Part shown: piece by piece, positions 8,162 through 25,909 of the stretch
Numbering within the stretch: the first letter of the stretch is position 1
How the letters are laid out: each line of letters opens with the position of its first letter
IMG/VR virus record: IMGVR_UViG_3300025417_000071
Coordinates: 1 to 28,096 of that record
Length of the DNA: 28,096 bases
Source of the DNA: a virus
Strand: one strand, 5' to 3'
The notes under the pieces: generated by a model
Database searches by the model: none
The model's input: only the letters and a program-made list of their open reading frames with translations
Told to the model about the DNA's origin: nothing
Program-made: the position numbers and the translations under genes

Positions 8162-8352
8162 TCTGAAATCAGAGCCAGTCCAACTGCAGTTGCAATTGCC
8201 ACGCCAATCCCAGCTGAAATTGCTGAGACATAGAGATCAACTTCATCCCAGTAGAAACCAAATCCCCACAGCTCAATGGCCACAAATGTCCAAATGCCTG
8301 CAAACAGGGTGATGTTCCTGCCACGCTCCAGGCTAATCTTGCGCTTCTTCAT
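8158..8352 (-). CDS. Small membrane protein with two predicted spans (64 aa)
   Basis: The ATG at 8352 follows CTGAGGAGGAAAG. A basic N-terminus (MKKRKISLERGRN) precedes one hydrophobic span (ITLFAGIWTFVAIELWGFGF), a short acidic turn (YWDEVD) and a second, small-residue span (VSAISAGIGVAIATAVGLAL). The positive-inside rule puts the N-terminus in the cytoplasm. It sits directly before whiB and overlaps it by 4 bp, so the two are probably co-expressed. A role in exclusion or membrane signalling is possible but not shown. Confidence 0.75.
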   Translation of the reverse strand: MKKRKISLERGRNITLFAGIWTFVAIELWGFGFYWDEVDLYVSAISAGIGVAIATAVGLALISE

Positions 8353-8447
8353 CTTTCCTCCTCAGAAAAGTTTGTCAGTGCGCTGTGCAGCTGACCCTTG
8401 AACTCTAACTGCTCTGGCTGAACCAAGTCAAGGTTGATTTCTGACAT
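8349..8447 (-). CDS. Possible 32-aa acidic peptide
   Basis: An ATG (8447) a few nt after the terminator opens a 32-residue frame (MSEINLDLVQPEQLEFKG...). Its TGA overlaps the ATG of the membrane gene (ATGA), like the real genes here. There is no ribosome site before it, since the upstream bases belong to the terminator hairpin. It may be leaderless, or the segment may only be a promoter region (a TTGACT lies inside it). Confidence 0.3.
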   Translation of the reverse strand: MSEINLDLVQPEQLEFKGQLHSALTNFSEEER

Positions 8448-8450
8448 AAA

Positions 8451-8486
8451 GCAAAAGACCGGCTCCCGAAGGAACCGGTCTTCTGC
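8451..8486 (-). terminator. Intrinsic terminator with TTCG tetraloop
   Basis: On the minus strand GACCGGTTCC-TTCG-GGAGCCGGTC forms a 10-bp GC-rich stem with one G-T wobble and a very stable TTCG loop, followed by TTTTGCTTT. It lies 17 nt after the gene ending at 8503, closing the unit that begins at 10900. The flanking bases (AAGA and TCTT) can extend the stem, so some bidirectional activity is possible. Confidence 0.9.
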
Positions 8487-8502
8487 ACGCTAGGGGAAGC
8501 GA

Positions 8503-8778
8503 TTATTTGGGGAGGATAAGACCCTTCTTCTCAGCAGCCCTGCGCTGAGCCCTGTTTGGTTTTCCCATGTGTTCAATCTGGGCAATGAGTCCCTGAATCT
8601 GCAGGTGCGCATGAAGCAGTGCATATTGAATCAGGTTGGAGTGAGCCAAATCCTTGACCTTGCAGGCTTTGTTGCCACCAAAAATGGTCTTGGCATCATC
8701 CTCTGACAGTTCTATGTCCCCATAGTTTTCAAGGATTCCATCCAAGATTGCCTGGACACCGGTTGAAGTGGTTGCCAT
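8503..8778 (-). CDS. Unknown protein (91 aa) downstream of SSB
   Basis: Starts at an ATG sharing a base with the SSB stop (TAATG). The N-terminal half is acidic (ILENYGDIELSEDDAKTIFGG), followed by a Leu/His-rich helix (LIQYALLHAHLQIQGLIAQI). The C-terminus is basic (KPNRAQRRAAEKKG), a tail seen on various small phage proteins. It is the last gene before the TTCG terminator. Nothing in it suggests an enzyme. A partner of SSB or of the annealing protein is possible from position alone. Confidence 0.75.
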   Translation of the reverse strand: MATTSTGVQAILDGILENYGDIELSEDDAKTIFGGNKACKVKDLAHSNLIQYALLHAHLQIQGLIAQIEHMGKPNRAQRRAAEKKGLILPK

Positions 8779-9170
8779 TAGAACCCGTAATCTTCCGCAG
8801 GAGCCGTTTTCTGCTGAAGCCCCTTACTGGACTGTGCCGTGTTCCAGCGCAAATCAGGCCCACAAGCCTCCACCTTTACCTCCACAGTGGAACGCTTCTC
8901 ACCTTTGTCGGTCTCCCAAGAACGCTGCTCCAGAGTGCCAGAGACAACAGCCCTGTCTCCCTTGTGCAAACTGTCAGCAATGTTCTGGGCAATAGACCCC
9001 AAAGCACTGCAGTCAAAGAAGGAGGTCTGCTCCTGCTCAGCACCAGTGCGGTCTTTCCACTTCTTGGTCACAGCCAAACTGAAACGCACCGCAACTGTGC
9101 CACTGTTCAGAAACTTCAGTTCAGGGTCTCTGGTGAGATTCCCCACAAGTGTGATTGTTGCATCAGCCAT
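8778..9170 (-). CDS. ssb: Single-stranded DNA-binding protein
   Basis: A 130-residue SSB with the usual OB-fold order: ITLVGNLTRDPELKF (6-20), VAVRFSLAVTKKWKDRTG (26-43), TSFFDCSALG (49-58), AQNIADSLHKGDRAVVSG (61-78) and TLEQRSWETDKGEKRSTVEV. After a short linker it ends AEDYGF, like the acidic C-terminal tip by which SSB recruits other proteins. It coats single strands during phage replication and recombination. It overlaps the ERF-like gene by 8 bp, and that pairing is common in phages. Confidence 0.95.
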   Translation of the reverse strand: MADATITLVGNLTRDPELKFLNSGTVAVRFSLAVTKKWKDRTGAEQEQTSFFDCSALGSIAQNIADSLHKGDRAVVSGTLEQRSWETDKGEKRSTVEVKVEACGPDLRWNTAQSSKGLQQKTAPAEDYGF

Positions 9171-9696
9171 TGGCTGTCTCCTTTTCCTTTAGGTCTGCCA
9201 AAATGCTATCGCACTCCTGCTCTGAAAGTTCATACAAACCAGCCAAGACACGACCAGCAATTTTCTCCAAGTAAGCCTTGCGGTCAGCAGACTCTGGGTG
9301 GAACTTCAGCAGTTCAGCCCTGACATCCTTCTGCTTGGCAGTGAGATCAGGAGCCTTTGCAGTCTGTCGCTCCACCTTCTGCATCTCCTCCCTGCTTGGT
9401 CGCTTTCCCTTTGGCGCATACCCTGCATTTGCCAAAGCTCTACCGGTTGAGCTGGTCTCGCAATTTTCCAAAGCACTGGTCTGGTTCACACCCCTGGTGC
9501 TGACCAGTTCCTCTGCATAGCCTGTGGCAAATGGCTGGTTGTCTCCCTCACGGAACAAAGCAGTGCGCACAATGAACTGCCCATCACCATGATGAATCAG
9601 TTCAGTCAGGACACGCCCATTTGGGTGTTCCTCCCAGAACTTTGCCAGTCGGACTTCTACTGGCTCATAGTCATTCAGGTTGAACCCAGCCATCAT
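9163..9696 (-). CDS. ERF-like putative single-strand annealing protein
   Basis: A 177-residue protein. Its core FIVRTALFREGD, ATGYAEELVS and TSALENCETSSTGRALANAGYA resembles the conserved part of ERF-type annealing proteins, where a Thr/Ser-rich segment ends in a helix (GRALAN.GY). The C-terminal third is basic helical (RPSREEMQKVERQTAKAPD, TAKQKDVRAELLKF). Function by context: it is fused by overlap to ssb, and the window also holds a YqaJ exonuclease, the usual partner of annealing proteins. The family call is a reading by eye. It starts ATGATG at 9696, overlapping the gene before by 4 bp. Confidence 0.6.
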   Translation of the reverse strand: MMAGFNLNDYEPVEVRLAKFWEEHPNGRVLTELIHHGDGQFIVRTALFREGDNQPFATGYAEELVSTRGVNQTSALENCETSSTGRALANAGYAPKGKRPSREEMQKVERQTAKAPDLTAKQKDVRAELLKFHPESADRKAYLEKIAGRVLAGLYELSEQECDSILADLKEKETANG

Positions 9697-9863
9697 GCAC
9701 CAGCCTTGATTTCAATGAGTGGCTCAAAATTGCTGGTGATGTCTTTGACCAGTTCTTCAACTCGGTCGTGAAACTCACCCTCATGGAGTGTGGCATCCGT
9801 GAATGCCAGTGCTGTCATCAGGGTCGCATACTGCGCTCCCGACAACGTGATTTGATACTTCAT
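9693..9863 (-). CDS. Small protein (56 aa), unknown function
   Basis: The ATG at 9863 follows AAAGAGGAAGAAACA, a good ribosome site. The product begins MKYQITLSGAQYATLMTAL and is a short acidic helical protein. Its TGA overlaps the start of the ERF-like gene (ATGA). The size, clean ribosome site and coupling support a real gene. No motif is recognisable. Confidence 0.7.
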   Translation of the reverse strand: MKYQITLSGAQYATLMTALAFTDATLHEGEFHDRVEELVKDITSNFEPLIEIKAGA

Positions 9864-9880
9864 TGTTTCTTCCTCTTTCT

Positions 9881-10006
9881 TTAGTTGTGCAGCCAGTAGT
9901 GGACTGCTGATTTTGAGACTGTGATTCCAGTCTCTTCTGTCAGGTATTTTGCTATCTCCCGATAACTCATCCCATCAGACCTTGCGGAAGCCAACCAGAC
10001 AATCAA
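9881..10006 (-). CDS. Small helix-turn-helix protein (about 41 aa)
   Basis: The open frame ends LHN-stop at 9881 and reads SYREIAKYLTEETGITVS, then KSAVHYWL: a textbook helix-turn-helix, in which helix 2 (REIAKYLTEET) and recognition helix (SKSAVHYWL) are joined by GITV. The start is unclear. TTG at 10006 (LIVWLASARSDGM...) is the best fit, with GGAAG upstream; the frame is open back to about 10030, and an ATG at 9970 would give only 29 aa. It may be a regulator of this early operon and a candidate for binding the palindromic operator, though nothing ties it to that site directly. Confidence 0.6.
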   Translation of the reverse strand: MIVWLASARSDGMSYREIAKYLTEETGITVSKSAVHYWLHN

Positions 10007-10025
10007 GTTGCTTCCAATCCGTTCC

Positions 10026-10286
10026 TCAATTAAACACTGCAGGTGTGACATCCCCAGACCACTTCCTCAACAGGTCAGCCAGTTCATCACAGGTGCGATT
10101 GAAGTGGATCACTGTGGTTGGCTGGTCTTCGCTCTCCGGCATCTTGACCGCCTGGATGATGCCATCACCAACACTCAAACTGACATAGATGTTGAATCCA
10201 TTGCCCTGCTTCCCATAAACCTCGCCGGTCTCGTCGCTGTGAGCCAGCTGGAATCCCAAATCATTCAATGTGTCTCTAATGCTCAT
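10026..10286 (-). CDS. Unknown protein (86 aa)
   Basis: Overlaps the previous gene by 11 bp. The sequence MSIRDTLNDLGFQLAHSDET is followed by beta-rich segments (GFNIYVSLSVGDGIIQAV, TTVIHFNRTCDELADLL), a small alpha-beta protein. There is one Cys and no metal motif. It is co-transcribed with the gene upstream and the HTH gene downstream. Family not recognised. Confidence 0.72.
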   Translation of the reverse strand: MSIRDTLNDLGFQLAHSDETGEVYGKQGNGFNIYVSLSVGDGIIQAVKMPESEDQPTTVIHFNRTCDELADLLRKWSGDVTPAVFN

Positions 10287-10515
10287 TGCTCCTCAATTTC
10301 TTTTGCTTGATTTTGCTTACTAATGATGGTGGGAAGTGGCGGTATTTGGAATGTTGCCATGTCCCTCCAATGACAGTAATCCACAAAGGATCACCTTCCC
10401 CACCCAGCCTCACCGAGTAAAACGTGAACTTCCCTCTGACATGGGCAACCTTAACCTCATCACCACGCTCAAAGCCGTTCCACGAACTCAGCACTACTCC
10501 TTCTGCTAAGGCCAT
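10276..10515 (-). CDS. Small beta-rich protein (79 aa), unknown function
   Basis: The ATG at 10515 has GATGAGGAGG 6 nt upstream. The sequence reads as strands joined by turns: RGDEVKVAHVRGKFTFYSVRL, DPLWITVIGG and TWQHSKYRHFPPSLV. This resembles small SH3-like or KOW-like barrels found in actinophage early operons, but that is only an impression. It overlaps the zinc-finger gene upstream by 10 bp. The C-terminus is basic (KIKQKKLRSN). Confidence 0.72.
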   Translation of the reverse strand: MALAEGVVLSSWNGFERGDEVKVAHVRGKFTFYSVRLGGEGDPLWITVIGGTWQHSKYRHFPPSLVSKIKQKKLRSNEH

Positions 10516-10637
10516 GTGACCTCCTCATCTCTCTTTGTGTAGTAGTCAAAGGCTGTGTCAATGCAGGTCAGGCAGACAAACTCAAAGGAGAACATCATGC
10601 CCTCTGCATACTTCTTGCACCACTTGCAGAAACCCAT
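10506..10637 (-). CDS. 43-aa zinc-finger protein
   Basis: The ATG begins on the last base of the upstream stop (TGATG), and the frame runs 43 residues into the next gene. It starts MGFCKWCKKYAEG and continues with FVCLTCIDTAF, two CxxC pairs 17 residues apart, a compact treble-clef or ribbon-like zinc site. The C-terminus (YYTKRDEEVTW) encodes the ribosome site of the gene downstream. Both the coupling and the Cys pattern support it. Confidence 0.68.
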   Translation of the reverse strand: MGFCKWCKKYAEGMMFSFEFVCLTCIDTAFDYYTKRDEEVTWP

Positions 10638-10900
10638 CACTTGCCTGCATTTTCACCAGTAAGTCCGTGCTTTGCGAACGCTGATGCGAACGAGTCACGA
10701 ACTTTCTGAAGTTCCTCTGCGGTGCGCTTATACCAGATGACACCACGACTGTCGATAATCTGCTCACGGTCTGCGATTTCTGATGCGAACGGCATCTCAA
10801 CGAGTTCCTCCGCAGTGCGAGTGCAGTAGTAGGCCTTGTAGCCAGCCTTCATCAACGCCGACCTCTCTGCGCTGTCTTTCATTTCATTCTTTGTTGCCAT
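10637..10900 (-). CDS. First gene of the early operon (87 aa), unknown function
   Basis: The ATG at 10900 follows CTGAGGAGGAAGAA and stands about 50 nt after the -10 of promoter-operator copy B, so the longer open frame upstream is leader. The protein contains an internal near-repeat: CTRTAEELVEMPFAS (residues 26-40) and KRTAEELQKVRDSFAS (58-73), each after a Tyr-containing strand (KAYYC and GVIWY). Two copies of a small strand-helix unit are therefore likely. As the first gene after an operator it may be a regulator or host-takeover protein (inference). It is richer in CpG than most neighbours. Confidence 0.75.
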   Translation of the reverse strand: MATKNEMKDSAERSALMKAGYKAYYCTRTAEELVEMPFASEIADREQIIDSRGVIWYKRTAEELQKVRDSFASAFAKHGLTGENAGK

Positions 10901-10945
10901 TTCTTCCTCCTCAGGAACACTCACTTCATCACCACTTGGTGACAT

Positions 10946-11000
10946 ATTCATTATTGTCCAACTGTTGGACACTTTGCAAGTCATTTCAGAAATATTTTTT
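10946..11000 (-). promoter_or_regulatory. Promoter with palindromic operator, copy B
   Basis: The minus strand reads A/T-rich AAAAAATATTT, TTGCAA (10979..10974), an 18-nt spacer and AATAAT (10955..10950). The spacer is filled by TGTCCAACAGTTGGACA, a perfect palindrome with 8-bp arms at 10971..10955. Element order and spacing are the same as at 5453..5399. A strong terminator lies just upstream (11085..11031), so this promoter starts a new transcription unit whose first gene is at 10900. Confidence 0.8.
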
Positions 11001-11030
11001 GGCAACGCTACAACCCTTGAAATTGCTGGG

Positions 11031-11085
11031 AAATACAAAAGCCCACTGGCTCTGATCATTGCCAGAAGCCAGTGGGCTTTGTATT
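11031..11085 (-). terminator. Long hairpin terminator, probably bidirectional
   Basis: Arms AAATACAAAAGCCCACTGGCT (11031-11051) and its complement (11067-11086) pair over about 20 bp with a single bulged base, around a 15-nt loop. On the minus strand the stem is followed by a T-rich end (GGGCTTTTGTATTT). It lies between the last lysis-region gene (ends 11147) and promoter copy B, so it separates the structural/lysis unit from the early unit. Confidence 0.92.
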
Positions 11086-11146
11086 TTTCTGAGGAAAGAA
11101 AAATGAAATGTCTACAAAGAAATTGCAGTGCAAGTCACTTGTTAGT

Positions 11147-11674
11147 TTATTCGGTTTTTGTGTAAGCCTCAAATAATTGTGCTGGTGTGACTGTATAGAT
11201 GTCTTTCCAGCTGTGAAGCCATCCACCAAACCTCAGTGACTCAGCAACCAGTGCAGAGCAAATGAATGTCCCAGCCCTGCGGAAACTTGGAAACCAGTTC
11301 GGCGTGATGATGTCTATGGCAACAGAGATGATTGTTGCCCAGCCATACTTGGAGCCAACTTGGGCTCTGGCAAACTCCAGAATCTGTGATCTGGACTGTC
11401 TGGGGAATGGCTCTATCAAGGTGTAAGCACCCACAGACTCAATGCGCTTGTCATTGGTCACACCAGATGGCTCAGCTTGGATGATGTAAGTGATGAACTT
11501 GACATCACCATTTTCAATGGTTCCCTCCATCACAACCCTGTCCACAATGAATGCATGGTTCCAGTGGCTGGGCTTCTCTCCCCACCTGATGCGCTCACCA
11601 AAGCGAATCAGTTTGCCAAAGATGCCATCACTGTGAGCAAAGCCAATGTCACCAGGCTGTGCCATCTCACTCAC
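11147..11674 (-). CDS. Permuted NlpC/P60 (YiiX-like) cysteine peptidase
   Basis: A 175-residue circularly permuted papain-fold protein. The His motif comes first (AQPGDIGFAHSDG and SHWNHAFIV with His40), and the catalytic Cys is near the end (AGTFICSALVAE, Cys139), after KYGWATIISVAIDI. GDI followed by a buried His and a late ICSALV is typical of YiiX/LRAT-like members. Such enzymes cleave or transfer amide or lipid bonds; in phages they are suspected cell-wall enzymes. It overlaps the holin-like gene by 4 bp, which fits a lysis role, but another NlpC/P60 enzyme is encoded at 18752, so which is the endolysin is open. Confidence 0.8.
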   Translation of the reverse strand: MSEMAQPGDIGFAHSDGIFGKLIRFGERIRWGEKPSHWNHAFIVDRVVMEGTIENGDVKFITYIIQAEPSGVTNDKRIESVGAYTLIEPFPRQSRSQILEFARAQVGSKYGWATIISVAIDIITPNWFPSFRRAGTFICSALVAESLRFGGWLHSWKDIYTVTPAQLFEAYTKTE

Positions 11675-11913
11675 TTGGCAGGTGGCAGAGTGCCTGCAGC
11701 CTTAACTGGCAAAGCACCAAGCAACCAAGACAACTTGGGAAACTTCACTTCCAACTGGCGAATGGCTCCATAGTAAATAGTTGATCCCAATGGAAGCACA
11801 ATTGCCAGCTCTGCTGGAGTCAGGTGCTTCTCAGCCTTAGTCAGCCAAGCGACCACTGAGGCCACCAGCACTGGCACAAAGGTGCGGACAATGTTCTTCT
11901 GGTAATTGTTCAT
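11671..11913 (-). CDS. Holin-like membrane protein (80 aa)
   Basis: Two hydrophobic segments, TFVPVLVASVVAWLTK (11-26) and ELAIVLPLGSTIYYGAI (35-51), are separated by a charged turn, followed by an amphipathic stretch (RQLEVKFPKLSWLLGALP). This layout is widespread in actinophage lysis regions, where it is thought to be a holin or antiholin. It directly precedes the peptidase gene with an ATGA overlap. Membrane location is well supported; pore function is inferred. Confidence 0.72.
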   Translation of the reverse strand: MNNYQKNIVRTFVPVLVASVVAWLTKAEKHLTPAELAIVLPLGSTIYYGAIRQLEVKFPKLSWLLGALPVKAAGTLPPAK

Positions 11914-12056
11914 GCTGCTTCTTTCTTACTGCACTTGTGACTGTCAGCCTGGAGAACCAAGTTTGGCAGTCTGTTGAATGGGATGTCTGCAAGAGACCCC
12001 CGACTTAGGATGACCATCTTGGAACAGTGGTCACACAAATAGATAAGTTGAGCCAT
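11910..12056 (-). CDS. Small Cys/His protein (48 aa)
   Basis: The ATG at 12056 opens a 48-residue frame whose TGA overlaps the ATG of the holin-like gene (ATGA). An in-frame stop lies two codons upstream of the ATG. It has LCDHCSKM near the N-terminus and SHKCSKKEAA at the end, a possible one-zinc fold. No good ribosome site precedes it, which lowers confidence. It fills most of an otherwise empty 190-nt gap. Confidence 0.55.
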   Translation of the reverse strand: MAQLIYLCDHCSKMVILSRGSLADIPFNRLPNLVLQADSHKCSKKEAA

Positions 12057-12106
12057 AGGTCACGAGACTACACCCAACCCTTTTCTGTTCGTTCAACCTT
12101 TGGACA

Positions 12107-13282
12107 TTACAGAACAGCCATGTCAGACCAGCCACGCTTGTCATGGTTGCCCACCAGCATGGTCAGTGTTCCAGTTGTAGACCACTTGCCGGTCATGTCA
12201 GTGAACCACTTGGAGCCACCATCCATGCTGGGACACTGGAACCTCCAGAATGCTCCAAAGTCATCCACAGCTAGGTGATGCCTGTGGGCAGTGACCCAGA
12301 GCTTGGGCATGACCCCAGTTTCATATTGCAGTTTCTGGGACTGGCCTCTGAGCCACTCAAACTCTTTGCCTGAAATCTTGTGACCATGAGTGATGGCAAC
12401 ATCCACTCCAGACAGCGTGATCATCTGCACCATCTCATCATGGGCAATGTGCCACTCAGATGGGCTGTCCTGCCCAGCAAAGATTCTCTGGAGTGTGTCC
12501 CCTAGATAGCCTCCAACATTGTCAGAGTCTGAGGTCACTGGCTTGGAGCCACCATTCCTAGTCCACTCTCCATGATTGCAAAGCACACTGGCAAAGATGT
12601 CTGGCTGGAGTGCAGACAGTCCCTGAGTCCAGAGGTCAAGCACCAAGTTCAACTGGGCTCTCAGGTTCAACTGGACTGTGAATCTCTGACTTGCATAGTT
12701 ATTGTCGCAACCCTCAGAAGGGTCTCCGAGATTGAAGATGGCAACTTTTTCAATGTTCCTGCCCAGCTTCTTCAGTTCTTTGAGCCTCACCAGGCAGTTG
12801 TTGAAAGACTCCTGAATCCTCTCAACAGTGGCCTCAACTCCACCCTGTTCACTTTTCCCTATCTGCCAATCGGCCCACGAAATTAGGAATGTGCAGGGCT
12901 CACCACTCACCTCAGTGGGCTTTTGTGGCTTGGGCCTCCACTTGTCAATCTTGGCTTTGAGCTCTTCAATGTCAGTCTCACTAGCCTGTGGTGACCGCCT
13001 AGCAAACCTGGCTTTGTAGGAGTAAAGCCACACAATGTCTCTGTCCCCAGATTCAGTCCTCTTGGACTGTTGCCACTTGGACATCCTCACAGTGTCATCC
13101 ACCACAAAGAACTCTGCAGGATCAAGACCAAATCCCTTCAGGACTGCATCCCAGTCAGAAGCCAGCTGGATGGGTTGGCTCATTTCCCCTGTTTGGAACT
13201 CACCACCATCAGCACCAACCTCCACCGAGGAGCGCACAACCTTTTCAGGTCGCTGGTCAAACTCGCTCAAATCCGCTGACAC
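12107..13282 (-). CDS. Metallophosphoesterase-like protein
   Basis: About 391 aa. The GTG at 13282 is the probable start; TTG at 13288 is the alternative. After a 130-residue N-terminal region come the calcineurin-type metal motifs in order: SWADWQIGK (Asp about 140), FNLGDPSEG (Asp about 189), VLCNHGEW (Asn-His about 239), AITHGHK (about 302) and TAHRHH (about 335-338). The first motif has D-x-Q rather than the usual D-x-H, as in many phage members. The substrate is unknown; relatives act on DNA ends or cyclic nucleotides. The gene follows a small HTH-like gene and precedes lysis genes. It overlaps the upstream gene by 16 bp. Confidence 0.82.
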   Translation of the reverse strand: MSADLSEFDQRPEKVVRSSVEVGADGGEFQTGEMSQPIQLASDWDAVLKGFGLDPAEFFVVDDTVRMSKWQQSKRTESGDRDIVWLYSYKARFARRSPQASETDIEELKAKIDKWRPKPQKPTEVSGEPCTFLISWADWQIGKSEQGGVEATVERIQESFNNCLVRLKELKKLGRNIEKVAIFNLGDPSEGCDNNYASQRFTVQLNLRAQLNLVLDLWTQGLSALQPDIFASVLCNHGEWTRNGGSKPVTSDSDNVGGYLGDTLQRIFAGQDSPSEWHIAHDEMVQMITLSGVDVAITHGHKISGKEFEWLRGQSQKLQYETGVMPKLWVTAHRHHLAVDDFGAFWRFQCPSMDGGSKWFTDMTGKWSTTGTLTMLVGNHDKRGWSDMAVL

Positions 13283-13500
13283 GCGCAATTCTTTCTGCGG
13301 TGCAACATCATTGCATTGAGCCTGAAGTCAGCATTGCGCTGCTCAGCCCACCTAAAGATGGCAGATGTGCTGATGTCTAAAGTCTCTAGTGCAGCCTGAA
13401 ATTTTTCTTGATCTTCAGTTGGAAGTTTGTCGCTCCAACGTGACACAATGCAGGGCTTCACCCTGATATTGGTTCTGAACTCTGACAGGTCTATGGACAT
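13267..13500 (-). CDS. Small HTH-like protein (77 aa)
   Basis: The ATG at 13500 has ACTGAGGAGGGAACA just upstream, so the longer open frame is discarded. The sequence KPCIVSRWSDKLPTEDQ is followed by LETLDISTSAIFRWAEQR, matching helix-turn-helix proteins in which 'IS.SAI.RW' is the recognition helix, and it ends with HRRKNCACQ. The same layout occurs in many actinophage proteins encoded near nuclease or phosphoesterase genes. It is a candidate DNA-binding regulator, possibly for the palindromic operators (untested). Confidence 0.72.
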   Translation of the reverse strand: MSIDLSEFRTNIRVKPCIVSRWSDKLPTEDQEKFQAALETLDISTSAIFRWAEQRNADFRLNAMMLHRRKNCACQRI

Positions 13501-13535
13501 TGTTCCCTCCTCAGTTATCCACAGCCCTGACGCTA

Positions 13536-13883
13536 TCAGAACCCAACTGGGGAAACTGTAATTTCTCCCTGCCACACAGCAGAGGTCTTGGTGGTATCCA
13601 TGCCACTGGAGGGCTGACCTGACCAGATGACATTCCATACACCAGCAAGGTTGATGGTGGAGAGGTCTGCATGGAAGACACCAGTGCTGTCATGGATGAT
13701 GGTTCCAGTGGGATCACCAGTGGGATTTGTCCATGTGTAGGTCTGGGCAGTCTGTCCCTGCACAGAGACCTGCAGAGTGACCACATCAGGATTCACAGCA
13801 GTGCCAGTGATGCTGGTGAATGGGTAGTCCTGAGTGGTGAGCCTAAGAGTGGCTCCCTGATAGAAGGTGTATGAACTGCTCAT
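13536..13883 (-). CDS. Ig-like beta-sandwich structural protein (115 aa)
   Basis: The protein is all beta in appearance: YTFYQGATLRLTTQDY, VVTLQVSVQGQTAQTYTW, GVFHADLSTINLAGVWNVIW, ending in an SAVWQGEITV strand. The pattern of one domain with a final 'G.W.V.W.G' strand resembles the Ig-like modules found in phage fibres and baseplate proteins (BppU-like). Its ATG overlaps the stop of the repeat protein upstream (ATGA). It is the last gene of the tail-fibre block. Confidence 0.7.
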   Translation of the reverse strand: MSSSYTFYQGATLRLTTQDYPFTSITGTAVNPDVVTLQVSVQGQTAQTYTWTNPTGDPTGTIIHDSTGVFHADLSTINLAGVWNVIWSGQPSSGMDTTKTSAVWQGEITVSPVGF

Positions 13884-14581
13884 TGGTAGGTGGTTCCTCT
13901 CACGCTTGCGGAATATGCCGTTGATTCAACTGTTGCTTGATACTCAGTCCCCTTGACATGACCAGAATAGGCGGTTCCCTCAACTACTGCTTGATAAGTA
14001 GTCCCTCTGACATGGGCAGAGTAGAAGGTTCCTTCCACCACACCTGGTGATGGGTGGATTGCCCTGCCTGATGCAGACCCAGCAAATGCATAGGTTCCTG
14101 CACCATGAGCTGGGTAGAAATTTGTCCCAGTTCCACTCCCTGAGAATGAGCTAGTGGCAGAGCCAGTGGCAGACACTCTGGCAATTGCCACACCAGCAAA
14201 TGACCCAGTGGCAGAACCAGTCCCAGCAAGTGTGTAGGTTGCTGACCCAGTGGCTGAGAAGGAATAGGCTCCTGCAGCCTGAACCACCAAGTAGTCGGCA
14301 GTTGATGCTGCATACATTCCACTGAGCGCACCAGTGGCTGGATATACAGGGACACCAGTTGCAGAGCCCAAGAAGGAGCCTGCCAAGTTTCCTGTGGCCT
14401 CTAGGGTCGCAGTTCCTGCACCACTGAATGAGCCAGAGCCAGAGCCAGTGGCTGGGTAGATGACAGTGGCTGTGGCAGAACCAGAGAAGGAGCCAGTTAG
14501 TGATCCAGTGGCAGTGAACTGTGTCAGTCCTGCGTAGGCCTGCCCAAGATATGGTGCGCCTAGATAGTTTGCGCCCAGCAT
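13880..14581 (-). CDS. Low-complexity fibre-like protein with two kinds of repeats (233 aa)
   Basis: The N-terminus (MLGANYLGAPYLGQAYAGL) is followed by about eight loose repeats of 'ATGS-A/L-TGSF-S/A-GSAT' plus 'YPATG' between residues 24 and 180, rich in Gly, Ser, Thr and Ala. The last 52 residues form a second, tidy repeat (see 14038..13883). Such composition suits a fibrous or surface-exposed virion protein; phage proteins of this make-up are often neck, capsid or tail decorations. Reading-frame use is constant, so the repeats are not sequencing noise. Function unproven. Confidence 0.75.
   Translation of the reverse strand: MLGANYLGAPYLGQAYAGLTQFTATGSLTGSFSGSATATVIYPATGSGSGSFSGAGTATLEATGNLAGSFLGSATGVPVYPATGALSGMYAASTADYLVVQAAGAYSFSATGSATYTLAGTGSATGSFAGVAIARVSATGSATSSFSGSGTGTNFYPAHGAGTYAFAGSASGRAIHPSPGVVEGTFYSAHVRGTTYQAVVEGTAYSGHVKGTEYQATVESTAYSASVRGTTYQ
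13883..14038 (-). repeat. Three 18-residue repeats with alternating charge
   Basis: Codes for nine-residue units of the form V-(E/R/K)-G-T-x-Y-(S/Q)-x-x. The second residue alternates E, R, E, K, E, R, and the seventh alternates S, Q, S, Q, S, Q. The true period is therefore 18 residues (54 nt), three copies, the last truncated by two residues. Third-base differences between copies indicate an old or selected repeat rather than a fresh duplication. Confidence 0.85.
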
Positions 14582-14590
14582 TGGGTCTCC

Positions 14591-15370
14591 TTACAGAAGT
14601 TCTAGGAAGTTGGTGCTGTTCGTGGTCGTGGCAGGGTTGATGACCAGACCGAGTGCAACCGAGATGTTGATGCCGGTAGTCGCTGCCGGTGACTGCCAGA
14701 AGCCCAGTGCGCCACCACTTGTTGTTTGCGGATAGGTGGCGATTTGGTAGGTGATGGCTGACTGACGTGAGCCGGTGACGTAGGTAGCCACTGTGTCATT
14801 GTTTGGCAGGTTGTAGGGAGAAGTTCCCCAGCCACCACCAGAAGGTGGCGTGGTTGAGAACGTAGGTGCGCCAGTCATACCGAGAAGAAGTTGCCCAGGC
14901 TGCCAGTAGTAGTTGAAGCCTTGCGCCTGACTGGTGGCGTTGGCGATTGCGGTTCCTTGTCCGTGTGGCGTTCCGTTGATTGCGATTGGGTTTGTTGTCG
15001 AGCATCCGGAGAACGTCGCTGTGCAGAAGCCGCCCGTTGTTGTTGGCACTCCGCTAAGCGTCACCGAGGTTGTGCCGGTGGTGGTCACGTTGTAGCCCAG
15101 CCAAGCGGAGAAGCCGTTGTTGGCGTTTGGTGCGCCGTTGCCGTTGGCCGTCAGACCGACCCACGTTGCTCCAGCTCCACTGACAGTGTAGGCAGGCAGG
15201 TATTTGTTCGCACCAGTCTGAGACCAGGCAGTGGTGTTGGTTGAGGAGACCACGATGAGGATGAGGTCACCTGGCAATGTTGAAAGCACAGGGACAGTTG
15301 TGGAGATTGACGAAGTCGTTGTCCCACCTCGGTAAGCAATAGCCACTACGCCACCGCCACCAATCGCCAC
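14591..15370 (-). CDS. Fibre-associated structural protein (259 aa)
   Basis: A Gly/Thr/Ser-rich, all-beta protein starting MAIGGGGVVAIAYRGG and containing STTVPVLSTLPGDLILIVVSS, TWVGLTANGNGAPN and GQLLLGMTGAPTFS. The layout ('P.GDLL.....S....W') resembles phage structural proteins encoded next to tail fibres. It overlaps the fibre gene by 25 bp and shares its CpG-rich composition, so both probably arrived together. It may be part of the fibre tip or an attached adhesin. No enzymatic motif was found. Confidence 0.7.
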   Translation of the reverse strand: MAIGGGGVVAIAYRGGTTTSSISTTVPVLSTLPGDLILIVVSSTNTTAWSQTGANKYLPAYTVSGAGATWVGLTANGNGAPNANNGFSAWLGYNVTTTGTTSVTLSGVPTTTGGFCTATFSGCSTTNPIAINGTPHGQGTAIANATSQAQGFNYYWQPGQLLLGMTGAPTFSTTPPSGGGWGTSPYNLPNNDTVATYVTGSRQSAITYQIATYPQTTSGGALGFWQSPAATTGINISVALGLVINPATTTNSTNFLELL

Positions 15371-16896
15371 TTGGAGGTTTCAGAGTCCCAGACAAATCCC
15401 ACGTCAAGACGAGCCGTTCCTGCGGTTGCCACTGGGAGAAGAACTCCACCAGATGACTCGAACATTGCTCCCCACGTCAGACCGATAGAAGTTGTGCCGG
15501 TCATTGAGATCCGCAAGGTGTCGCCGTCCACGGGCGTTCCTGAGCTTGTGAACTGCACCGGCGTTGTGGTCTGGCTGGTGACGTGATACACATCAACATT
15601 GTCGGTGTTGATTGCGTAGGACGAAGCGTTGGCCGTCGTCGAGGTCACTCGCTTGGTGATGCGCTTGTTTGTCAGAGTGTCGGTGGTGGCACGTCCGACC
15701 AGCGTGTCCGTCGAGGTCGGCAGGGTCAGCGTTCCGGAGTTCACAATGCTGGAGAAGCTGGGAGTTGTAAGACTTGGTGATGTTGAAAGGACATTGGAGC
15801 CAGAGCCAGTTGATGTGGTCACACCAGTGCCACCTGCAGTCACAGGGAGAACGTTTGCCATCTGCGCCAAGTCAGTCGTGACGAAAGCGTACCAAGTGCC
15901 TCCGGTGCCAGTTCCGCTGTAGGTGAACGTGTAGGCGGCGTTCACAGTCACTGCGTAGTTGGCCTTGATTATCTGGCCTGTTGCCGATGTGGTGGCGTTG
16001 GCGCTGAGTGTAATCGTGGATGCGCCTGAGTTGATTGACACGATGGTTGTGCCAGCAGGTGTGTAGGTTCCCGATACTTCCTGACCAACGTAGAGGTTGC
16101 TCGTCGAACTTACGCTGGTCAGCGTTGGGGACGAGGCTGTGGTCGTTGCGGTGAATGAGGGAGCGTAGACGTTGCCCGACACCGAAACGTTGTTCAGCCC
16201 ACCGTTGATGTAGACGGTGTTTAGTGAGAGGTTCTTGATTTGGTAGGTCGAGCCGTTGACGGGGTTCAAAGGAAGCGTGATGACCTGATACTGAGTCGAG
16301 CCGTTGAAGATGGTGAACTCACCAACTCCAGCCGTCGCAGTTGACGAGCGAGTGACCAGCGAGTTCGGGACTACGTTCGTCCAAGTGCCGGGAGTGCCGC
16401 CGGTAATACAGACCCAGAACGTGCCGGTCTGGTCGGCCACTACGTCGCCAGCCTGAAACGTGCCGGACGTAGGAGCACCAGCAGCGGTGACACCGACGAG
16501 GCGAGTCGTTCCGGCAGTAGCACCAGTGAGACCAGTGACCTTGATGTCTGGGACTGATACTTCACCAGTGAAGGTTGCACCAGACAGGGGAGCCAACTGG
16601 CTCAGGAGGTTGGCATCTATGGTCTGAGCAATCTGATAACCAGCAGTGATGCTCTGGGCTGTGGTTCCATACTGAGCCCGAGTGATCGTGAAGGTGTCGG
16701 TTGCCACAGCAGTGACCCTGACAATCTCAGCATTGGTGCTGAGTGGCTGGACACCAGCAGGCCAAATGGTCGCATCAAATGGAGCCGTTGGGAACAATGC
16801 ACCCTGCCCAGCAGTCACCACAAGGGAGGTTCCAGATGTGGCAGGTGATGGTGGTGTTGCCACCAGTGAATAGGCAAAGTTCTTCAGGGCATCCAT
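15346..16896 (-). CDS. Tail fibre protein (516 aa)
   Basis: The N-terminal ~120 residues (MDALKNFAYSLVATPPSPATSG, then a TIWPAGVQPLST / TRAQYGTTAQ segment) form the likely tail-attachment region. A second region carries a short collagen-free beta module. The C-terminal half includes the fibre signature GGTGVTTSTGSGSNVLS, PSLTTPSFSSIV, GTLTLPTSTDTLVGR and DTLTNKR, and ends with a small domain finishing TSKWRLVAVA. From about 16540 downstream it is very CpG-rich (55 CpG in 15901-16500), while the N-terminal part is CpG-poor (about 5 in 360 nt). This is the mosaic expected when a receptor-binding tip is swapped. It probably decides host range. Confidence 0.82.
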   Translation of the reverse strand: MDALKNFAYSLVATPPSPATSGTSLVVTAGQGALFPTAPFDATIWPAGVQPLSTNAEIVRVTAVATDTFTITRAQYGTTAQSITAGYQIAQTIDANLLSQLAPLSGATFTGEVSVPDIKVTGLTGATAGTTRLVGVTAAGAPTSGTFQAGDVVADQTGTFWVCITGGTPGTWTNVVPNSLVTRSSTATAGVGEFTIFNGSTQYQVITLPLNPVNGSTYQIKNLSLNTVYINGGLNNVSVSGNVYAPSFTATTTASSPTLTSVSSTSNLYVGQEVSGTYTPAGTTIVSINSGASTITLSANATTSATGQIIKANYAVTVNAAYTFTYSGTGTGGTWYAFVTTDLAQMANVLPVTAGGTGVTTSTGSGSNVLSTSPSLTTPSFSSIVNSGTLTLPTSTDTLVGRATTDTLTNKRITKRVTSTTANASSYAINTDNVDVYHVTSQTTTPVQFTSSGTPVDGDTLRISMTGTTSIGLTWGAMFESSGGVLLPVATAGTARLDVGFVWDSETSKWRLVAVA

Positions 16897-18752: not shown

Positions 18753-18760
18753 GTTTTCTC

Positions 18761-19234
18761 CTAGTTGATTCCAATGACAGTGATTTGTGCAAATGATGCG
18801 TGAAACGTTCCACTTTCAGCTTTAGCAAACAGATAAAGGCTGAAAGGCTGGATGCTTCCAGGTGTTGCAGTAGCAATCCCAGAGAATGAGCCACCAGCAG
18901 TGGTGTAATAAGCCACACGACCAGGCCCAAATGATGGTGTGGTGTTGTTGTATCCCAGTTCAACGTCAAGGTAGGAACTGGTGCTGGGAGCAGTGTTGCC
19001 ACTTCCCACAGTCCAAATCACTAGGTAGGTGGTGAACCCACCAAGCACACCAAAGGCTGTTCCTCCAGTGTTGTCCAAAGACTGAACAAGTGTGTAGGTA
19101 GTGCCAATACTGGTGTTGGTGTTGCCTGAGTTGCCTGAGTCCCAGATGCTGTTCTGTCTCCAGAAGGAAGCATCTGATCCATCCCCAAGAGCAGCCAGTT
19201 GAGCTCCATAGTTGGTTGTATTTCTAATAACCAT
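18761..19234 (-). CDS. Beta-rich structural protein (157 aa)
   Basis: The sequence is rich in Gly, Thr, Ser and Asn, with strands such as TTYLVIWTVGSG, SSYLDVELGYNN, GRVAYYTTAGG and FSLYLFAKAESGTFHASFAQITV. It has the look of a jelly-roll or carbohydrate-binding-like tail appendage. It directly follows the large minor tail protein, with TAATG coupling. No metal or catalytic site was noticed. A receptor-contact or tail-decoration role is possible. Confidence 0.7.
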   Translation of the reverse strand: MVIRNTTNYGAQLAALGDGSDASFWRQNSIWDSGNSGNTNTSIGTTYTLVQSLDNTGGTAFGVLGGFTTYLVIWTVGSGNTAPSTSSYLDVELGYNNTTPSFGPGRVAYYTTAGGSFSGIATATPGSIQPFSLYLFAKAESGTFHASFAQITVIGIN

Positions 19235-21783
19235 TAGGACTGCCTAACTGGGTATGGGTCAAGAATCAGGCTGGTGTGCCAGTAGCCTGGCTCAGCAGCA
19301 AACTCGTGGCTGATGCTCTCCACTGCCATAGGCAGGTTGATGACTCCATTGCTGGTTGCGTGTGGCTGGGTGCGCTTGAACTGCACCACATCTCCCAGAG
19401 CAACGCTCAGCATGAATGGCAGGTTGGTTCCCTGATTTGTGCCATCAGTGGTCTCACTCAGCAGGGTGACATTGTTTACTCTTGCCAATGGGGTCTTGTA
19501 GATGTATCCCAAGAACCAAGCTGATGACAGGGCATCCTGCAGGGAGGTGGACAGAGTTGATGACTTGCTCAGAGTCGAGTATCCCCAGCGAGCCTCGTTC
19601 TGCACGTTCTCGTAAATCTGATCTACACCAGCCTGTGGTGTGATGCGAACAGTTGTCCACAAGTCAGCATCATCCTGAATGACCTGCAGGTTGTTCACAT
19701 CATATGGATAAGAGCCTGTGGTGTTGTCATCAGACAGGACATTCCCAACGCTGTAGTTGTAAGTCCAGCTGAAAGATGGTGTGCCTGGTGGCAGGGCATT
19801 AGTGAATGTCCAAGTTCCGTAATAGTTCTGGTCATTGAAGTAGAACCGGCCTGCTGGGTCTTGGTAGAAAGCACCAATGTCAGTGTCTGTCACCTGCTGA
19901 ATCAGGTCAAGAGCAGTGGAGCCATCAACTGGGCTGTCCCAGTAGTAGGGCTCTGTTGCCATTGCTCCATTGGTGGAGGCTCCTGCACTGAAAGCAGAGA
20001 AGGTCTGATATGAGTTGCCAATGTAGAACCCATAGGTTCCACCACTGGGGATTGAGACAGTTGCCAGAGCAGAGGTGGTTCCACCAGAGATGGTTCCCAT
20101 GCCTGCCAGTGTCAGCAATTCAGCAATCCTGTCACCAGACAGAACCTTTGTGGAGGTCACTGGGTATCCAAGCTGCAGCAGTGTCCCGGCTCGGTATCGC
20201 TGCTGAACCTCTGAAACCAGAGTGCTGAGGCTGGACAGGTTGCTCACCACAATCTCATCCACATAGCCGTTATATGAAGCAACCTGGGTGGCAGTGGCTC
20301 CCACATACAAACCACCAGTCACAAAGTTCAAGCTTGTGCCAGTGAGTGAGGTGGGGAAGAACTGCCCATCACAGTAGAGGTTGATGGTTCCTGTTGATCC
20401 AGAGCCAACCACCACCAGACCAACATGATGCCAGTATCCATCATTAACTTTTGGCTCACCAGAGATGGAGACAGTTGAGCCATTGACAGCAATGGAGATG
20501 TATCCATTGGGGTTCACAAACAAGGAAACAGTCCCAGCACCACTGCCATATTGAGTGACCAAGAGAGTGTTGCCATTCACCTGCTGACCCAGAATCCAGA
20601 AGTCAATTGCTCCATAGGTGGACTGGGTTCCAAAGGTGGGGACAATGTTCAGGGTTCCTGAAGCGACGTTCCCCTGACCAGACAAGTCCACACAGCCATC
20701 AGTGTCATAAATCAATGCACCATGCTGTGGGTAGGAGACCTGACCTAAGAAGTAGCCATCATTGCTGGCAATGTATTCATGGAGTGCAGTGATGTAGGCC
20801 ACACCAGCAGAGGTGGCTGATGGGTTGCCAGTAGTGGTCAGAGCCACTGTGAATGAAGTCACCACACCATTGCTGACAGTGGTTGCTGTGATTGCAGCAT
20901 TAGTCACATTCAAGGTGGAGAGCCCAGCCAGACCATTCACAGTCACATTGGAGCCAACGTTGAAGTTGGTGCTGGCATTCACAATCTGGTAGGTGACAGT
21001 CCCAGCAGAAGAGTTTGCCTGAGCTGCAGTCACAGTTGCAACTGCATAATTGCTGCACCTATACCAGTAGCGAGCAGATGCAGCCAACCCACCCTGACTT
21101 GCTGGCGTGGTGTATTGCTTCCAGAATGAAGGTCTCAGCAGATACTTCAGGCTGAGATACTTCAGGAGATCACTTGCTTCAATGTCAAGGTCAGAGTTGA
21201 GCTCATCAACAGGATTCTCAGTGATGGAGTCAATGATGCCAAAGAAAATTGGATATGCCTGACCCACCCATCTGGCCTTGATAGCAACAGGCATTCTGGG
21301 AGTGATTGTGTATGGGGAGCCATTGAAGAACCCATCACGATTGTTCACAGTCAGCTTCAGTGTGGTGGCTTCAACCCTGTCCAGGTAGTGCTGTTTTCCT
21401 GACTTGGTGGTGAAGTCCCTGACATACTGACCAACCCAAGTCCAGTAGGAGTTGGAGACTGCAGCATGACCTGAGCCTGATGCAGTTCCCACCAAAGAGC
21501 TGGTCACAGTGAACTGGGTGGAGGTGGCACTGGCAATGGTTGCCCTAGTGACATTCAATGATGATCCAGAGGCCACACCAAGCCCATACACAGTCACCAC
21601 ATTTCCAGCCGAGAAACTGTTGTTGCAGGTGTAGGTAATGGTTGTGCCATTCCCCACCGCTGCAGAAACATCCCTGGTGATGTCTGGCAAAGACTGCTGG
21701 TTGGCAGTTGCCAGTGTTGCACCATTGGCAGTGGGAGAGAAAGCAATCCAAGCATCAATGATTGGAAGGCTCTGGATGCTCAC
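19234..21783 (-). CDS. Large minor tail protein with lectin-like domain (849 aa)
   Basis: Starts with GTG at 21783, overlapping the previous stop (GTGA). Order of parts: a tail-hub-like region (residues 115-225: VRDFTTKSGKQHYLDRVEATTLKLTVNNRDGFF, then IFFGIIDSITE and LDIEASDLLKYL) typical of actinophage minor tail/baseplate proteins; a LamG/concanavalin-like domain (about 340-520: DGYWHHVGLVVVG, TINLYCDGQFFP, NGYVDEIVVSNLS); and a C-terminal hub-like part (ISHEFAAEPGYWHTSLILDPY). Two copies of a beta module are inserted at about 44-112 and 248-334. It probably forms the tail tip and may bind surface sugars. CpG is nearly absent (4 in 20041-20640). Confidence 0.85.
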   Translation of the reverse strand: MSIQSLPIIDAWIAFSPTANGATLATANQQSLPDITRDVSAAVGNGTTITYTCNNSFSAGNVVTVYGLGVASGSSLNVTRATIASATSTQFTVTSSLVGTASGSGHAAVSNSYWTWVGQYVRDFTTKSGKQHYLDRVEATTLKLTVNNRDGFFNGSPYTITPRMPVAIKARWVGQAYPIFFGIIDSITENPVDELNSDLDIEASDLLKYLSLKYLLRPSFWKQYTTPASQGGLAASARYWYRCSNYAVATVTAAQANSSAGTVTYQIVNASTNFNVGSNVTVNGLAGLSTLNVTNAAITATTVSNGVVTSFTVALTTTGNPSATSAGVAYITALHEYIASNDGYFLGQVSYPQHGALIYDTDGCVDLSGQGNVASGTLNIVPTFGTQSTYGAIDFWILGQQVNGNTLLVTQYGSGAGTVSLFVNPNGYISIAVNGSTVSISGEPKVNDGYWHHVGLVVVGSGSTGTINLYCDGQFFPTSLTGTSLNFVTGGLYVGATATQVASYNGYVDEIVVSNLSSLSTLVSEVQQRYRAGTLLQLGYPVTSTKVLSGDRIAELLTLAGMGTISGGTTSALATVSIPSGGTYGFYIGNSYQTFSAFSAGASTNGAMATEPYYWDSPVDGSTALDLIQQVTDTDIGAFYQDPAGRFYFNDQNYYGTWTFTNALPPGTPSFSWTYNYSVGNVLSDDNTTGSYPYDVNNLQVIQDDADLWTTVRITPQAGVDQIYENVQNEARWGYSTLSKSSTLSTSLQDALSSAWFLGYIYKTPLARVNNVTLLSETTDGTNQGTNLPFMLSVALGDVVQFKRTQPHATSNGVINLPMAVESISHEFAAEPGYWHTSLILDPYPVRQS

Positions 21784-21995
21784 GTCAGTCTCCGTTTGGT
21801 TGCAGGTGTTGGCTTTGGCTTCTCAGCAGTCTTCCCATACAGGTTGCCCATTGTGCGAACCTGCTTGGTCTGTGCTGTCCTGATTGCCAATGCTACCGCA
21901 TTGATGAAACGCTGGTCTTGAAGAAGAGCATTCACAATCCCTGAGATGCTGATTTCAACTTCAACCTCTTGCTCCAGATTCAACTCACCAGCCAT
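21780..21995 (-). CDS. Small protein between tape measure and minor tail (71 aa)
   Basis: The ATG at 21995 shares a base with the tape-measure stop (TAATG). An acidic N-terminus (MAGELNLEQEVEVEI) leads to an amphipathic helix (GIVNALLQDQRFINAVALAIRTAQ) and a basic, Pro-rich tail (KPKPTPATKRR). No family was recognised; its place suggests a role in tail-tip assembly. Confidence 0.72.
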   Translation of the reverse strand: MAGELNLEQEVEVEISISGIVNALLQDQRFINAVALAIRTAQTKQVRTMGNLYGKTAEKPKPTPATKRRLT

Positions 21996-23782
21996 TACTT
22001 AGTCACCTTGAACTTGTGGCGAGTCACCACCACTGGAGGCTTGGTGATGTTATGGCCGTTTGCCCATGTCTGCTCGCCTGCTCCAGTTGCAGGAGTCCAG
22101 CCAGACACCATGCGACCACGACCACCACCCTCGAAGATTGCTCCGGTCACTTGGTCAATGACGTATGCCTGATTTTCCTGCTCACCGGCCTTGACTTGCT
22201 TCATGATTGCCGCAGCAGTTGCGCCCTTGTAGAACTTCTCCACTAGTGCTGGAGTCACATCTCGGTTGTTGCCTCGTGTTGCGTAGTATCCACCAGCAAA
22301 GACTGCTGCTGCCAGAGCAATGGGGACTGCTGCTGCTGCGCCTACTGCCAGCGCACCTCCGCCCTCTGCGCCACCGAGGGCGCCTGCGGCTGCTTCAGTG
22401 CCAGAGATGCCACCTTCACCAGCCATGATTGCAGTGTTGTCAGCAATGGCAGTCAGCAAAGTGATTTGAGTCTGAGCCTGCTCAGTGGACAGACCACCGG
22501 AAATGGGACTGCCACCACCAAAGAGCCCTTTTACCTTGCCAATGACACCTTGAATCCCACTGAAGAGCTTGAAGCCCACAGCAGCAACAAAGGCTGCAAT
22601 GGAGGCCTTACTAGCAATTTCTTTCAGGAGTGGGTGCTTCTGCAAATAGGCAACAGTGTTTGTGACCCAGTTGGCAATGTCCTGAACACCTGGAAGCAGC
22701 AGCAGACCAAGACCAGTCAGGGTATTCTTGGCTGAGTTTTTCAGTTGCTCCAGCCTAAAGTTCAACTGATTCTGTGTGATGCCAAAGCTCTTGGCAAGGT
22801 CAGCACCAGATGCTCCTCCCAAAGTCTTCACATTCTTGGCAAGAGTGTTGATGTGGGTTGAGAGGGTGGAAACCAAACCGACTGCACCAGGCCCAAAGGT
22901 CTGAGTAATCAGTGTGTTCATTGACACACCAGTTTTCTTGGAGACTTGCTCCAAGTAGCTCAGAACATCAACCAGACCAGTGCCAGGGTGACGTGCAGTT
23001 TCTGCCAGTGTCTGAGCGTTAATGTGCAGTTCTGCCATAGCCTTTGATGAGGCTTTGGTGGGGTTCTCAATCCTGTGCAGGCCAGTTGCCAGTTGCGTGT
23101 AGGACTTGGCTGTGCTGTATCCAGCCTTTGATGCCACATCAGAGACAGCAGCCATCTCAGCCAAGTTCAGGCCTTCAGCAGCCAGTGCGCCACCAACTTT
23201 GCCAGTGAGAATCCCAGTCAGGCTTTCCAGTGATCCAATGTGGCTCTGGTTTGCTTTCACCATCAAGTCAGAGACAGCAGCAACACTCATCCCCTTAGCA
23301 ATCTGCAGGTTCTGGATGCCAATGAGGGTCTGGGTCATCTGAGTGACATCCCCACCAGTGATGGCTGCAGCCTTTGCTGCATTGTCCACTACCTGATAGG
23401 CAGCCTTCCCACGAAGGCCGGCCTTCTCAACTTGGAGAAATGCTGATGAAATGTTGTCAGAGGAGATGGCAGTCTGGTCTGACACCTTCATGATGGCAGT
23501 CTTCAGGTAGTCCAGTTCCCCTGAAGAAACACCAGCCTGATTCTGAATCTTGTCCAGAGACTCAGTGAACTTTAGAGCTTGGTCAATGCCATATCCAGCA
23601 ATGGCTGCACCAACACCAATGACAGCAGTGGAAGCCTTGTCAGCAAACTTGGAGAACTTAGAACCAGCAGTGTCTGCTGAGAGACCAAACTTGTCCATCT
23701 TGTGCTGGGCTTCAGTCATCTTCGCCATGTATTCCTTAGTGTCAGCAAGGAGTGTGGCAATTACTGGAGGGAGAAGTGGCAT
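21995..23782 (-). CDS. Tape measure protein
   Basis: A 595-residue phage tail tape measure of the TP901/PhageMin_Tail type. The N-terminal part has the family segments TESLDKIQNQAGVSSGELD, LQVEKAGLRGKAAYQVVDNAAKAAAITGG, SDLMVKANQSHIGSLESLTG and GLNLAEMAAVSDVASKAGYSTAKSYTQLATGL. The region around residues 480-520 is hydrophobic (AVGAAAAVPIALAAAVFAGGYY) and could cross the host membrane during DNA entry. Using the usual 0.15 nm per residue, the tail would be roughly 90 nm, a short siphovirus tail. It lies downstream of the assembly chaperones, as expected. Confidence 0.93.
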   Translation of the reverse strand: MPLLPPVIATLLADTKEYMAKMTEAQHKMDKFGLSADTAGSKFSKFADKASTAVIGVGAAIAGYGIDQALKFTESLDKIQNQAGVSSGELDYLKTAIMKVSDQTAISSDNISSAFLQVEKAGLRGKAAYQVVDNAAKAAAITGGDVTQMTQTLIGIQNLQIAKGMSVAAVSDLMVKANQSHIGSLESLTGILTGKVGGALAAEGLNLAEMAAVSDVASKAGYSTAKSYTQLATGLHRIENPTKASSKAMAELHINAQTLAETARHPGTGLVDVLSYLEQVSKKTGVSMNTLITQTFGPGAVGLVSTLSTHINTLAKNVKTLGGASGADLAKSFGITQNQLNFRLEQLKNSAKNTLTGLGLLLLPGVQDIANWVTNTVAYLQKHPLLKEIASKASIAAFVAAVGFKLFSGIQGVIGKVKGLFGGGSPISGGLSTEQAQTQITLLTAIADNTAIMAGEGGISGTEAAAGALGGAEGGGALAVGAAAAVPIALAAAVFAGGYYATRGNNRDVTPALVEKFYKGATAAAIMKQVKAGEQENQAYVIDQVTGAIFEGGGRGRMVSGWTPATGAGEQTWANGHNITKPPVVVTRHKFKVTK

Positions 23783-23785
23783 TGT

Positions 23786-24256
23786 TTAAGCTTCCTGTGC
23801 GCCCTGCATCATGGATGCATAGAGTTTTGAGAGATGATCTTGTGACTTTTCAAGACCAGGTTGCATGAATGGGAATGATCTTGTTGGGTAGTAGGGGAAA
23901 TGCCCACCACCAAGTGATGTGTTGTTTGGGGTGGGATAACCAAGTTCCACTCTGCGCCCATACTTAACTGTTGGCCCAGTCTGTGAGACCCAGTAGGAGC
24001 CCTCTTTGCCAACTTTTACAACCCTGATTGACCTAGCTAATCTGCCACTTCTGCTGGTTGGAATAGGCCAAGCATCAGACCGCCAATCATCAGTTGCCAA
24101 TGATTCCTGACCACTTATGAAGATGCTCTGTGCATTAGAAGCAATCAGCTCACCACCCTTTTGCACAAACTGTCTGGTGTAGATGTCCACCATAGCCTTC
24201 AGCATTTCAGTGGCATCCTCAAAGTCACCATCCTCAACAGTGATGTCACTGGGCAT
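23786..24256 (-). CDS. HK97 gp10-like tail completion/neck protein (156 aa)
   Basis: The ATG overlaps the end of the frameshifted chaperone by 11 bp. After an N-terminal helix (LKAMVDIYTRQFVQKGGELIA) it has SRSGRLARSIRVVKVG, WVSQTGPTVKYGRRVELG and TRSFPFMQPGLEKSQDHL. The sequence 'G.L..SI', 'Y...VE.G' and 'PF..PAL' marks the HK97 gp10-like family. That family normally sits between the connector and the tail terminator; here it is placed after the chaperones. A tail-completion role is inferred from the family. Confidence 0.7.
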   Translation of the reverse strand: MPSDITVEDGDFEDATEMLKAMVDIYTRQFVQKGGELIASNAQSIFISGQESLATDDWRSDAWPIPTSRSGRLARSIRVVKVGKEGSYWVSQTGPTVKYGRRVELGYPTPNNTSLGGGHFPYYPTRSFPFMQPGLEKSQDHLSKLYASMMQGAQEA

Positions 24257-24838: not shown

Positions 24839-24856
24839 TAGTTCCCCTTAGTTGGA

Positions 24857-25900: not shown

Positions 25901-25909
25901 GATGATTCC

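Follow-up and report, generated by a model that had tools for sequence, protein, structure and literature searches.

How does one stretch of a viral genome come to carry CpG at about its expected frequency when the DNA around it falls to about 0.2 of expectation? The question is raised by the 28,096-nt contig analysed here over its whole length (the window), in which CpG observed/expected (O/E) is 0.35 overall (661 CpG in 28.1 kb, or 23.5 per kb), whereas positions 14591-16540, covering the distal part of a tail fibre gene and an adjoining gene of 259 aa, hold 151 CpG at an O/E of 0.96. The initial annotation described a CpG-rich island in a CpG-depleted genome, having counted 55 CpG at 15901-16500 and 4 at 20041-20640. 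Our recount gave 56 and 4, and the contrast stands, but the richness does not: the island is merely normal, and its surroundings are abnormal. The contrast reflects a CpG-depleted recipient and not a CpG-enriched import.

At 18753-27929, CpG O/E is 0.22 and the deficit is accompanied by an excess of TpG (1.60) and CpA (1.69), with TpA at 0.40. Among all CG, TG and CA dinucleotides, CG accounts for 151/473 within the island and 510/5616 elsewhere (binomial tail 5e-44). Amino-acid content does not explain the island, since a null model in which amino acids are kept and synonymous codons are drawn by base composition gives CpG ratios of 0.85 for the fibre gene and 0.93 for the 259-aa gene; the majority of the remaining genes lie at 0-0.5. 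Two-state HMM segmentation on CG/TG/CA sites placed the CpG-rich state at 14545-16515, and the island is not the sole patch of its kind, as the same segmentation returned CpG-normal patches at 819-1684, 3791-4113 and 10657-10873, together with shorter ones. Beyond the CpG-rich patches, the window is strongly short of TpA as well (O/E about 0.34-0.40, lower than the 0.5-0.8 of most relatives).

A search of viral contigs with the fibre yielded 32 loci (loci counts here and below can include several loci of one contig), among them L002, from IMGVR_UViG_3300025648_000121. The block at 14528-16548 (minus strand), which comprises the distal fibre and the 259-aa gene together with the ribosome-binding region and opening 18 codons of the gene that follows, is 98.7% identical to L002 over 2021 bp without gaps. 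The CpG O/E of L002 is 1.29, against 0.35 for the window. Outside the block, identity drops to background on both sides with sharp edges, at fibre residue 117 on the right (16548) and at codon 18 of that following gene on the left (14528). In the 11.7 of 19.3 kb of the L002 contig that were examined, the only matches to window proteins besides the block are the two genes adjoining it, at 31% and 37%. The onset of the signal had been put near 16540 and its end at the gene boundary at 14591; the homology instead starts at 16548 and runs 54 bases into the next gene. The proposal that the 259-aa gene belongs to the same exchanged unit is supported by the extent of the L002 match, and the proposal that the receptor-binding part was exchanged while the attachment domain was left gains support from the near-identity of the distal part to an otherwise dissimilar, CpG-normal contig.

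Within the block, fibre residues 117-516 (15346-16548, minus strand), the exchanged shaft and tip and the presumed receptor-binding part, hold 101 CpG at an O/E of 1.03 and are 98.4% identical to L002 at the nucleotide level. The product of the 259-aa gene (14591-15370, minus strand) is 99.6% identical to its counterparts in L002 and in L004, and 97.7% identical to that in L009; the block itself is represented in L004, a 4.3-kb contig, by 1532 bases at 98.3% identity and in L009 by its left two thirds at 90%. Searches of Pfam, PHROG and NCBIfam with the 259-aa protein gave no match, its structure model was unusable (pLDDT 34), and that of the fibre was too poor (pLDDT 53). The following repeat-rich gene (13880-14581, minus strand), imported only in its first 18 codons, has a CpG ratio of 0.17. 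Fibre residues 389-516 (15346-15732) share 48.5% identity with a stretch of Methylophilaceae phage P19250A that bears a tape measure annotation in that phage, so the tip domain also occurs in phages of proteobacteria.

The 26 differences between the window and L002 lie at 16545 and 16534, in a cluster at 15467-15387, at five sites in 14996-14918, and at 14539 and 14537, and there is not one mismatch from 16533 to 15468. Given the mismatches close to either edge, the likeliest crossover points are about 16533 and 14540 or positions further inside the block. The window retains 152 of the 157 CpG that L002 has in the block, its own total there being 154, and four of the five lost ones fall in the 15467-15387 cluster or beside the right edge, together with other changes; CpG decay since the import is thus not visible. 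The HMM state has two short gaps, at which the sequence is common to L002.

The N-terminal part of the same fibre presents the opposite picture. Residues 1-116 (16549-16896, minus strand), which hit tail fibre families of PHROG over residues 5-115, contain 5 CpG (O/E 0.19). Homologues with a like CpG pattern along the gene, the finding that the initial annotation regarded as telling against an exchange, were sought without success: over residues 1-101 the O/E is 0.22 in the window and at least 0.89 in 29/29 N-terminal loci (0.89-1.56, median 1.07), and L003 and L009, in which both fibre parts are present, are CpG-normal in both. Compared with L026, L027, L028 and L030, residues 1-101 show 95-96% identity in protein but only about 73-77% in DNA. 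One PDB fold search on the fibre, and sequence comparison as well, paired residues 19-101 with the tail-fibre chain of phage GP4 (PDB 8jov), and the gene at 16974-17345 matches the GP4 gp80 fibre family, which makes an attachment role for the N-terminal part a reasonable assignment. The alignments of L028, L026 and L027 also stop at 16548. Because this one fibre base terminates the alignments of several distinct phages, the KVTGLTGAT linker encoded there looks like a recurrent module boundary. The L002 contig ends within its fibre gene, short of the N-terminus; the part of its shaft that lies upstream of the junction is similar to the shaft of L028, whose fibre N-terminus is 95% protein-identical to the window's.

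We consider it very probable that the block records a recent swap of the tail-fibre tip by crossover, a CpG-normal import into a recipient that was losing CpG. Homologous crossover would have taken place recently in a conserved linker at either end of the block, on one side where the fibre gene encodes KVTGLTGAT and on the other in the conserved opening codons of the gene downstream, and may have been assisted by the phage's own YqaJ/RecE-like recombination exonuclease (1652-2674, minus strand; PF09588, phrog_434) and SSB. The resident distal fibre would have been replaced and the resident attachment domain kept, and the swap may have changed the receptor or the host. The recipient lineage would have had a raised rate of C-to-T change at CpG, as if methylated CpG deaminates, perhaps with some additional selection against CpG. 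The block would then appear as a CpG island because CpG disappears fast from the recipient and the import arrived too recently for its own CpG to have decayed.

That the recipient is peculiar can be seen from its relatives. The strain loci L034, L114, L115/L257, L133 and L213 are all CpG-poor (O/E 0.24-0.43) and rank as the six lowest among the 305 loci that reach 3 kb, the next, at 0.53, being AT-rich contigs. The close relative L134 is nearly normal at 0.76. Distant relatives, from which matches under 65% amino-acid identity had been dropped, proved saturated and uninformative as a source for the spectrum of loss, with NCG going to A, C and T about equally, so L134 was used, over a stretch (22245-28048, minus strand) aligned at 84.4-84.6% nucleotide identity. 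In this comparison only 72 of the 343 aligned CpG of L134 survive in the window and 271 are gone, whereas the other dinucleotides listed are kept at 64-81%. The loss amounts to about four fifths of CpG, against changes of mostly about 10-30% at other synonymous third positions.

We favor CpG hypermutability, perhaps via cytosine methylation, as the cause of the loss; that mutation was the main driver, with or without methylation, seems to us probable, if with less assurance than the swap itself. In two-fold codons, a third-position C followed by G became T in 56/66 cases, against 13/184 where any other base followed, and in four-fold codons the ratio of T to transversions is 51:13 before G and 16:40 otherwise (p 2e-8). 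When changes were polarised with outgroups and sites with disagreeing outgroups were dropped, C-to-T changes on the window branch affected 62/281 CpG and 47/872 other sites, compared with 8/281 and 17/872 on the L134 branch. At the codon level L134 lost CpG as well (16/47, in 918 usable codon columns), so the process may have had an earlier start.

Selection against CpG, for example through host restriction or a modification-dependent nuclease, could instead have driven the depletion of the background; we give this reading a lower but substantial chance. Polarised CpG gains number 0 on the window branch against 20 on the L134 branch, NCG codons became NCC or NCT in 39/74 cases against 26/90 in the control (p 0.002), and 14/43 arginine CGN codons became AGR; none of these is a product of deamination, and together they suggest selection. 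Yet at codon boundaries transitions are raised at CpG and transversions are not (13/76 versus 40/207, p 0.73), and the phage persists with 154 CpG in one 2-kb block. Polymorphism among the strains, polarised by L134 after exclusion of 11 variable sites whose neighbours had changed and 7 unpolarisable ones, also speaks for mutation: transitions occur at 6/188 CpG bases and 20/4320 others (p 6e-4, about 7-fold), and CpG gains, at 3/1137, are not clearly suppressed.

The depletion has no single tetranucleotide target, a possibility ruled out by the finding that all 16/16 NCGN contexts in the CpG-poor parts are at or below 0.55 of expectation. GCGC, at 0.55, is the least depleted, and 16 of 30 GCGC of L134 are kept in 22245-28048; CGCG is almost absent from the CpG-poor parts (4 on both strands, 0.02 of expectation).

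A candidate agent of the loss is encoded in the window itself. A predicted cytosine-5 methyltransferase is split between a first, catalytic ORF (3590-4516, minus strand; PF00145 profile positions 2-168, TIGR00675), with a CpG ratio of 0.52 to the synonymous-codon null, and a second ORF for the C-terminal part (3058-3636, minus strand; PF00145 positions 198-322), which overlaps the first in another frame. The two-ORF form is identical in L114, L115 and L034, which represent two contigs (L114, and L034/L115). Among relatives, the enzyme is also split, in different frames, in L117, L118, L124, L120 and L128 and is a single ORF in L119, L122, L126 and L129. Catalytic and C-terminal parts lie in two overlapping genes in the cytosine-5 methyltransferases M.AquI and M.EcoHK31I as well; the setting here differs in that close relatives with the split enzyme are not CpG-poor. 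The enzyme is no more than a candidate because L258, a close relative that, to judge by its GC content of 0.56 and its similarity, probably represents a phage of L134's kind, carries a relative of it (82% in the first part) and yet has a CpG O/E of 0.88. It is conceivable, although we would not count on it, that the lineage acquired a vertebrate-like CpG regime through its own split methyltransferase or through its host, and that young imports are marked by their CpG as a result.

The swap would be illusory if reads of an L002-like phage had been joined into the contig of a CpG-poor phage during assembly. The window is a metagenome contig, and its right junction is unique to it: an exact 67-base pattern search of the viral contigs for this junction found no match, and L034, a contig of another metagenome that is 99.79% identical over 2110-15034, stops inside the block. 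L034 nevertheless spans the left junction, which was therefore assembled independently, and it carries strain differences. Six of these fall within the block (14918 to 15032), and at five of the six sites L002 also departs from the window. At the right junction the 516-aa reading frame is unbroken, and the two positions where the window departs from L002 there, 16545 and 16534 (the second without L002's CpG), resemble resident sequence ahead of a crossover. We therefore regard a chimera as improbable. That the tip is native and kept CpG-rich by codon or expression constraint is scarcely credible: fibre genes are rich in Thr, Ser, Ala and Gly and the block has a higher GC content (0.575), but the synonymous-codon null already handles the amino acids, constraint cannot make DNA nearly identical to that of an otherwise dissimilar phage, and the N-terminus of the same gene is CpG-poor.

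A recent tip swap is a known kind of event; the fast CpG loss that exposes it here is unusual. Vertebrate genomes are depleted of CpG by methylation and contain unmethylated CpG islands (compare PMC4804638). The window is like them in its O/E of about 0.2, its TpG/CpA excess and the elevated CpG transitions among strains, and unlike them in that it belongs to a phage, that its CpG-rich patches would be young imports and not protected islands, and that methylation is only presumed. A study in fission yeast reports that CpG can be hypermutable even without methylation (PMC4704713), and a survey of 7,011 phage genomes gives a range of 4-169 CpG per kb, with a phage-host correlation of 0.74 (PMC12132194); the window stands at 23.5. 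Modular exchange of receptor-binding proteins and tail fibres is described in a report on Alteromonas phages A5 and V22 (PMC10579305), and another paper surveys domain mosaicism (PMC10684548). As in such systems, dissimilar phages here share a near-identical distal fibre and adjoining gene and the N-terminal attachment part is retained; unlike in them, the crossovers lie within the fibre and within the following gene, and a CpG contrast flags the import. Our literature searches for CpG-depleted freshwater phages and for CpG contrast marking fibre swaps returned no paper.

The swap offers a clean natural case, with sharp edges, of a receptor-binding tip that moved between dissimilar phages while the attachment end stayed. 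The recipient is of wider interest, as its CpG collapsed while a relative 15% away remained nearly normal. If methylation is the cause, phage DNA can gain a mutational regime of the vertebrate type, and young imports would be flagged by their CpG content without a reference genome. As to the host, scanning alignments A1 and A2 against genome contigs found no relative. The window has a match to the WhiB family, its exonuclease-like protein matches mostly actinobacterial phages among cultured phages (about 31% for the best matches listed), and its tail tube matches 6 records of cultured phages at 28-29%; together these suggest, but do no more than suggest, an actinobacterial host.

How far CpG content can serve as a marker of import may be judged from the other patches. 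An N6/N4 DNA methylase gene (792-1655, minus strand; Pfam PF01555) forms a second import-like patch, with a CpG ratio of about 1.0. It is 88% identical at the nucleotide level to L050, from contig 3300006123_000028, over 805-1532 and 95% identical over 1546-1658, and L266, a locus of the same contig, likewise matches 792-1655 at 88-95%. Outside the strains and L134/L258, this gene and the block are the only parts of the window with DNA identity above 85%, both at a CpG ratio of about 1, and all three segments above that level (fibre tip, 259-aa gene and methylase) are CpG-normal. The ORF at 10637-11059 (140 aa; CpG ratio about 0.86-0.87), for which family searches and a search for a close match came back empty, is possibly another young import. 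As a graded clock, CpG content was rejected: in 37 of 41 segments, the remaining 4 having no match, the CpG ratio did not track best identity (rho 0.21, p 0.22). The marker has so far been borne out only at the extremes. In strain L115 the sequence departs from that of the window both up to 1061 and past the end of the methylase gene near 769, so this locus seems to be actively exchanged.
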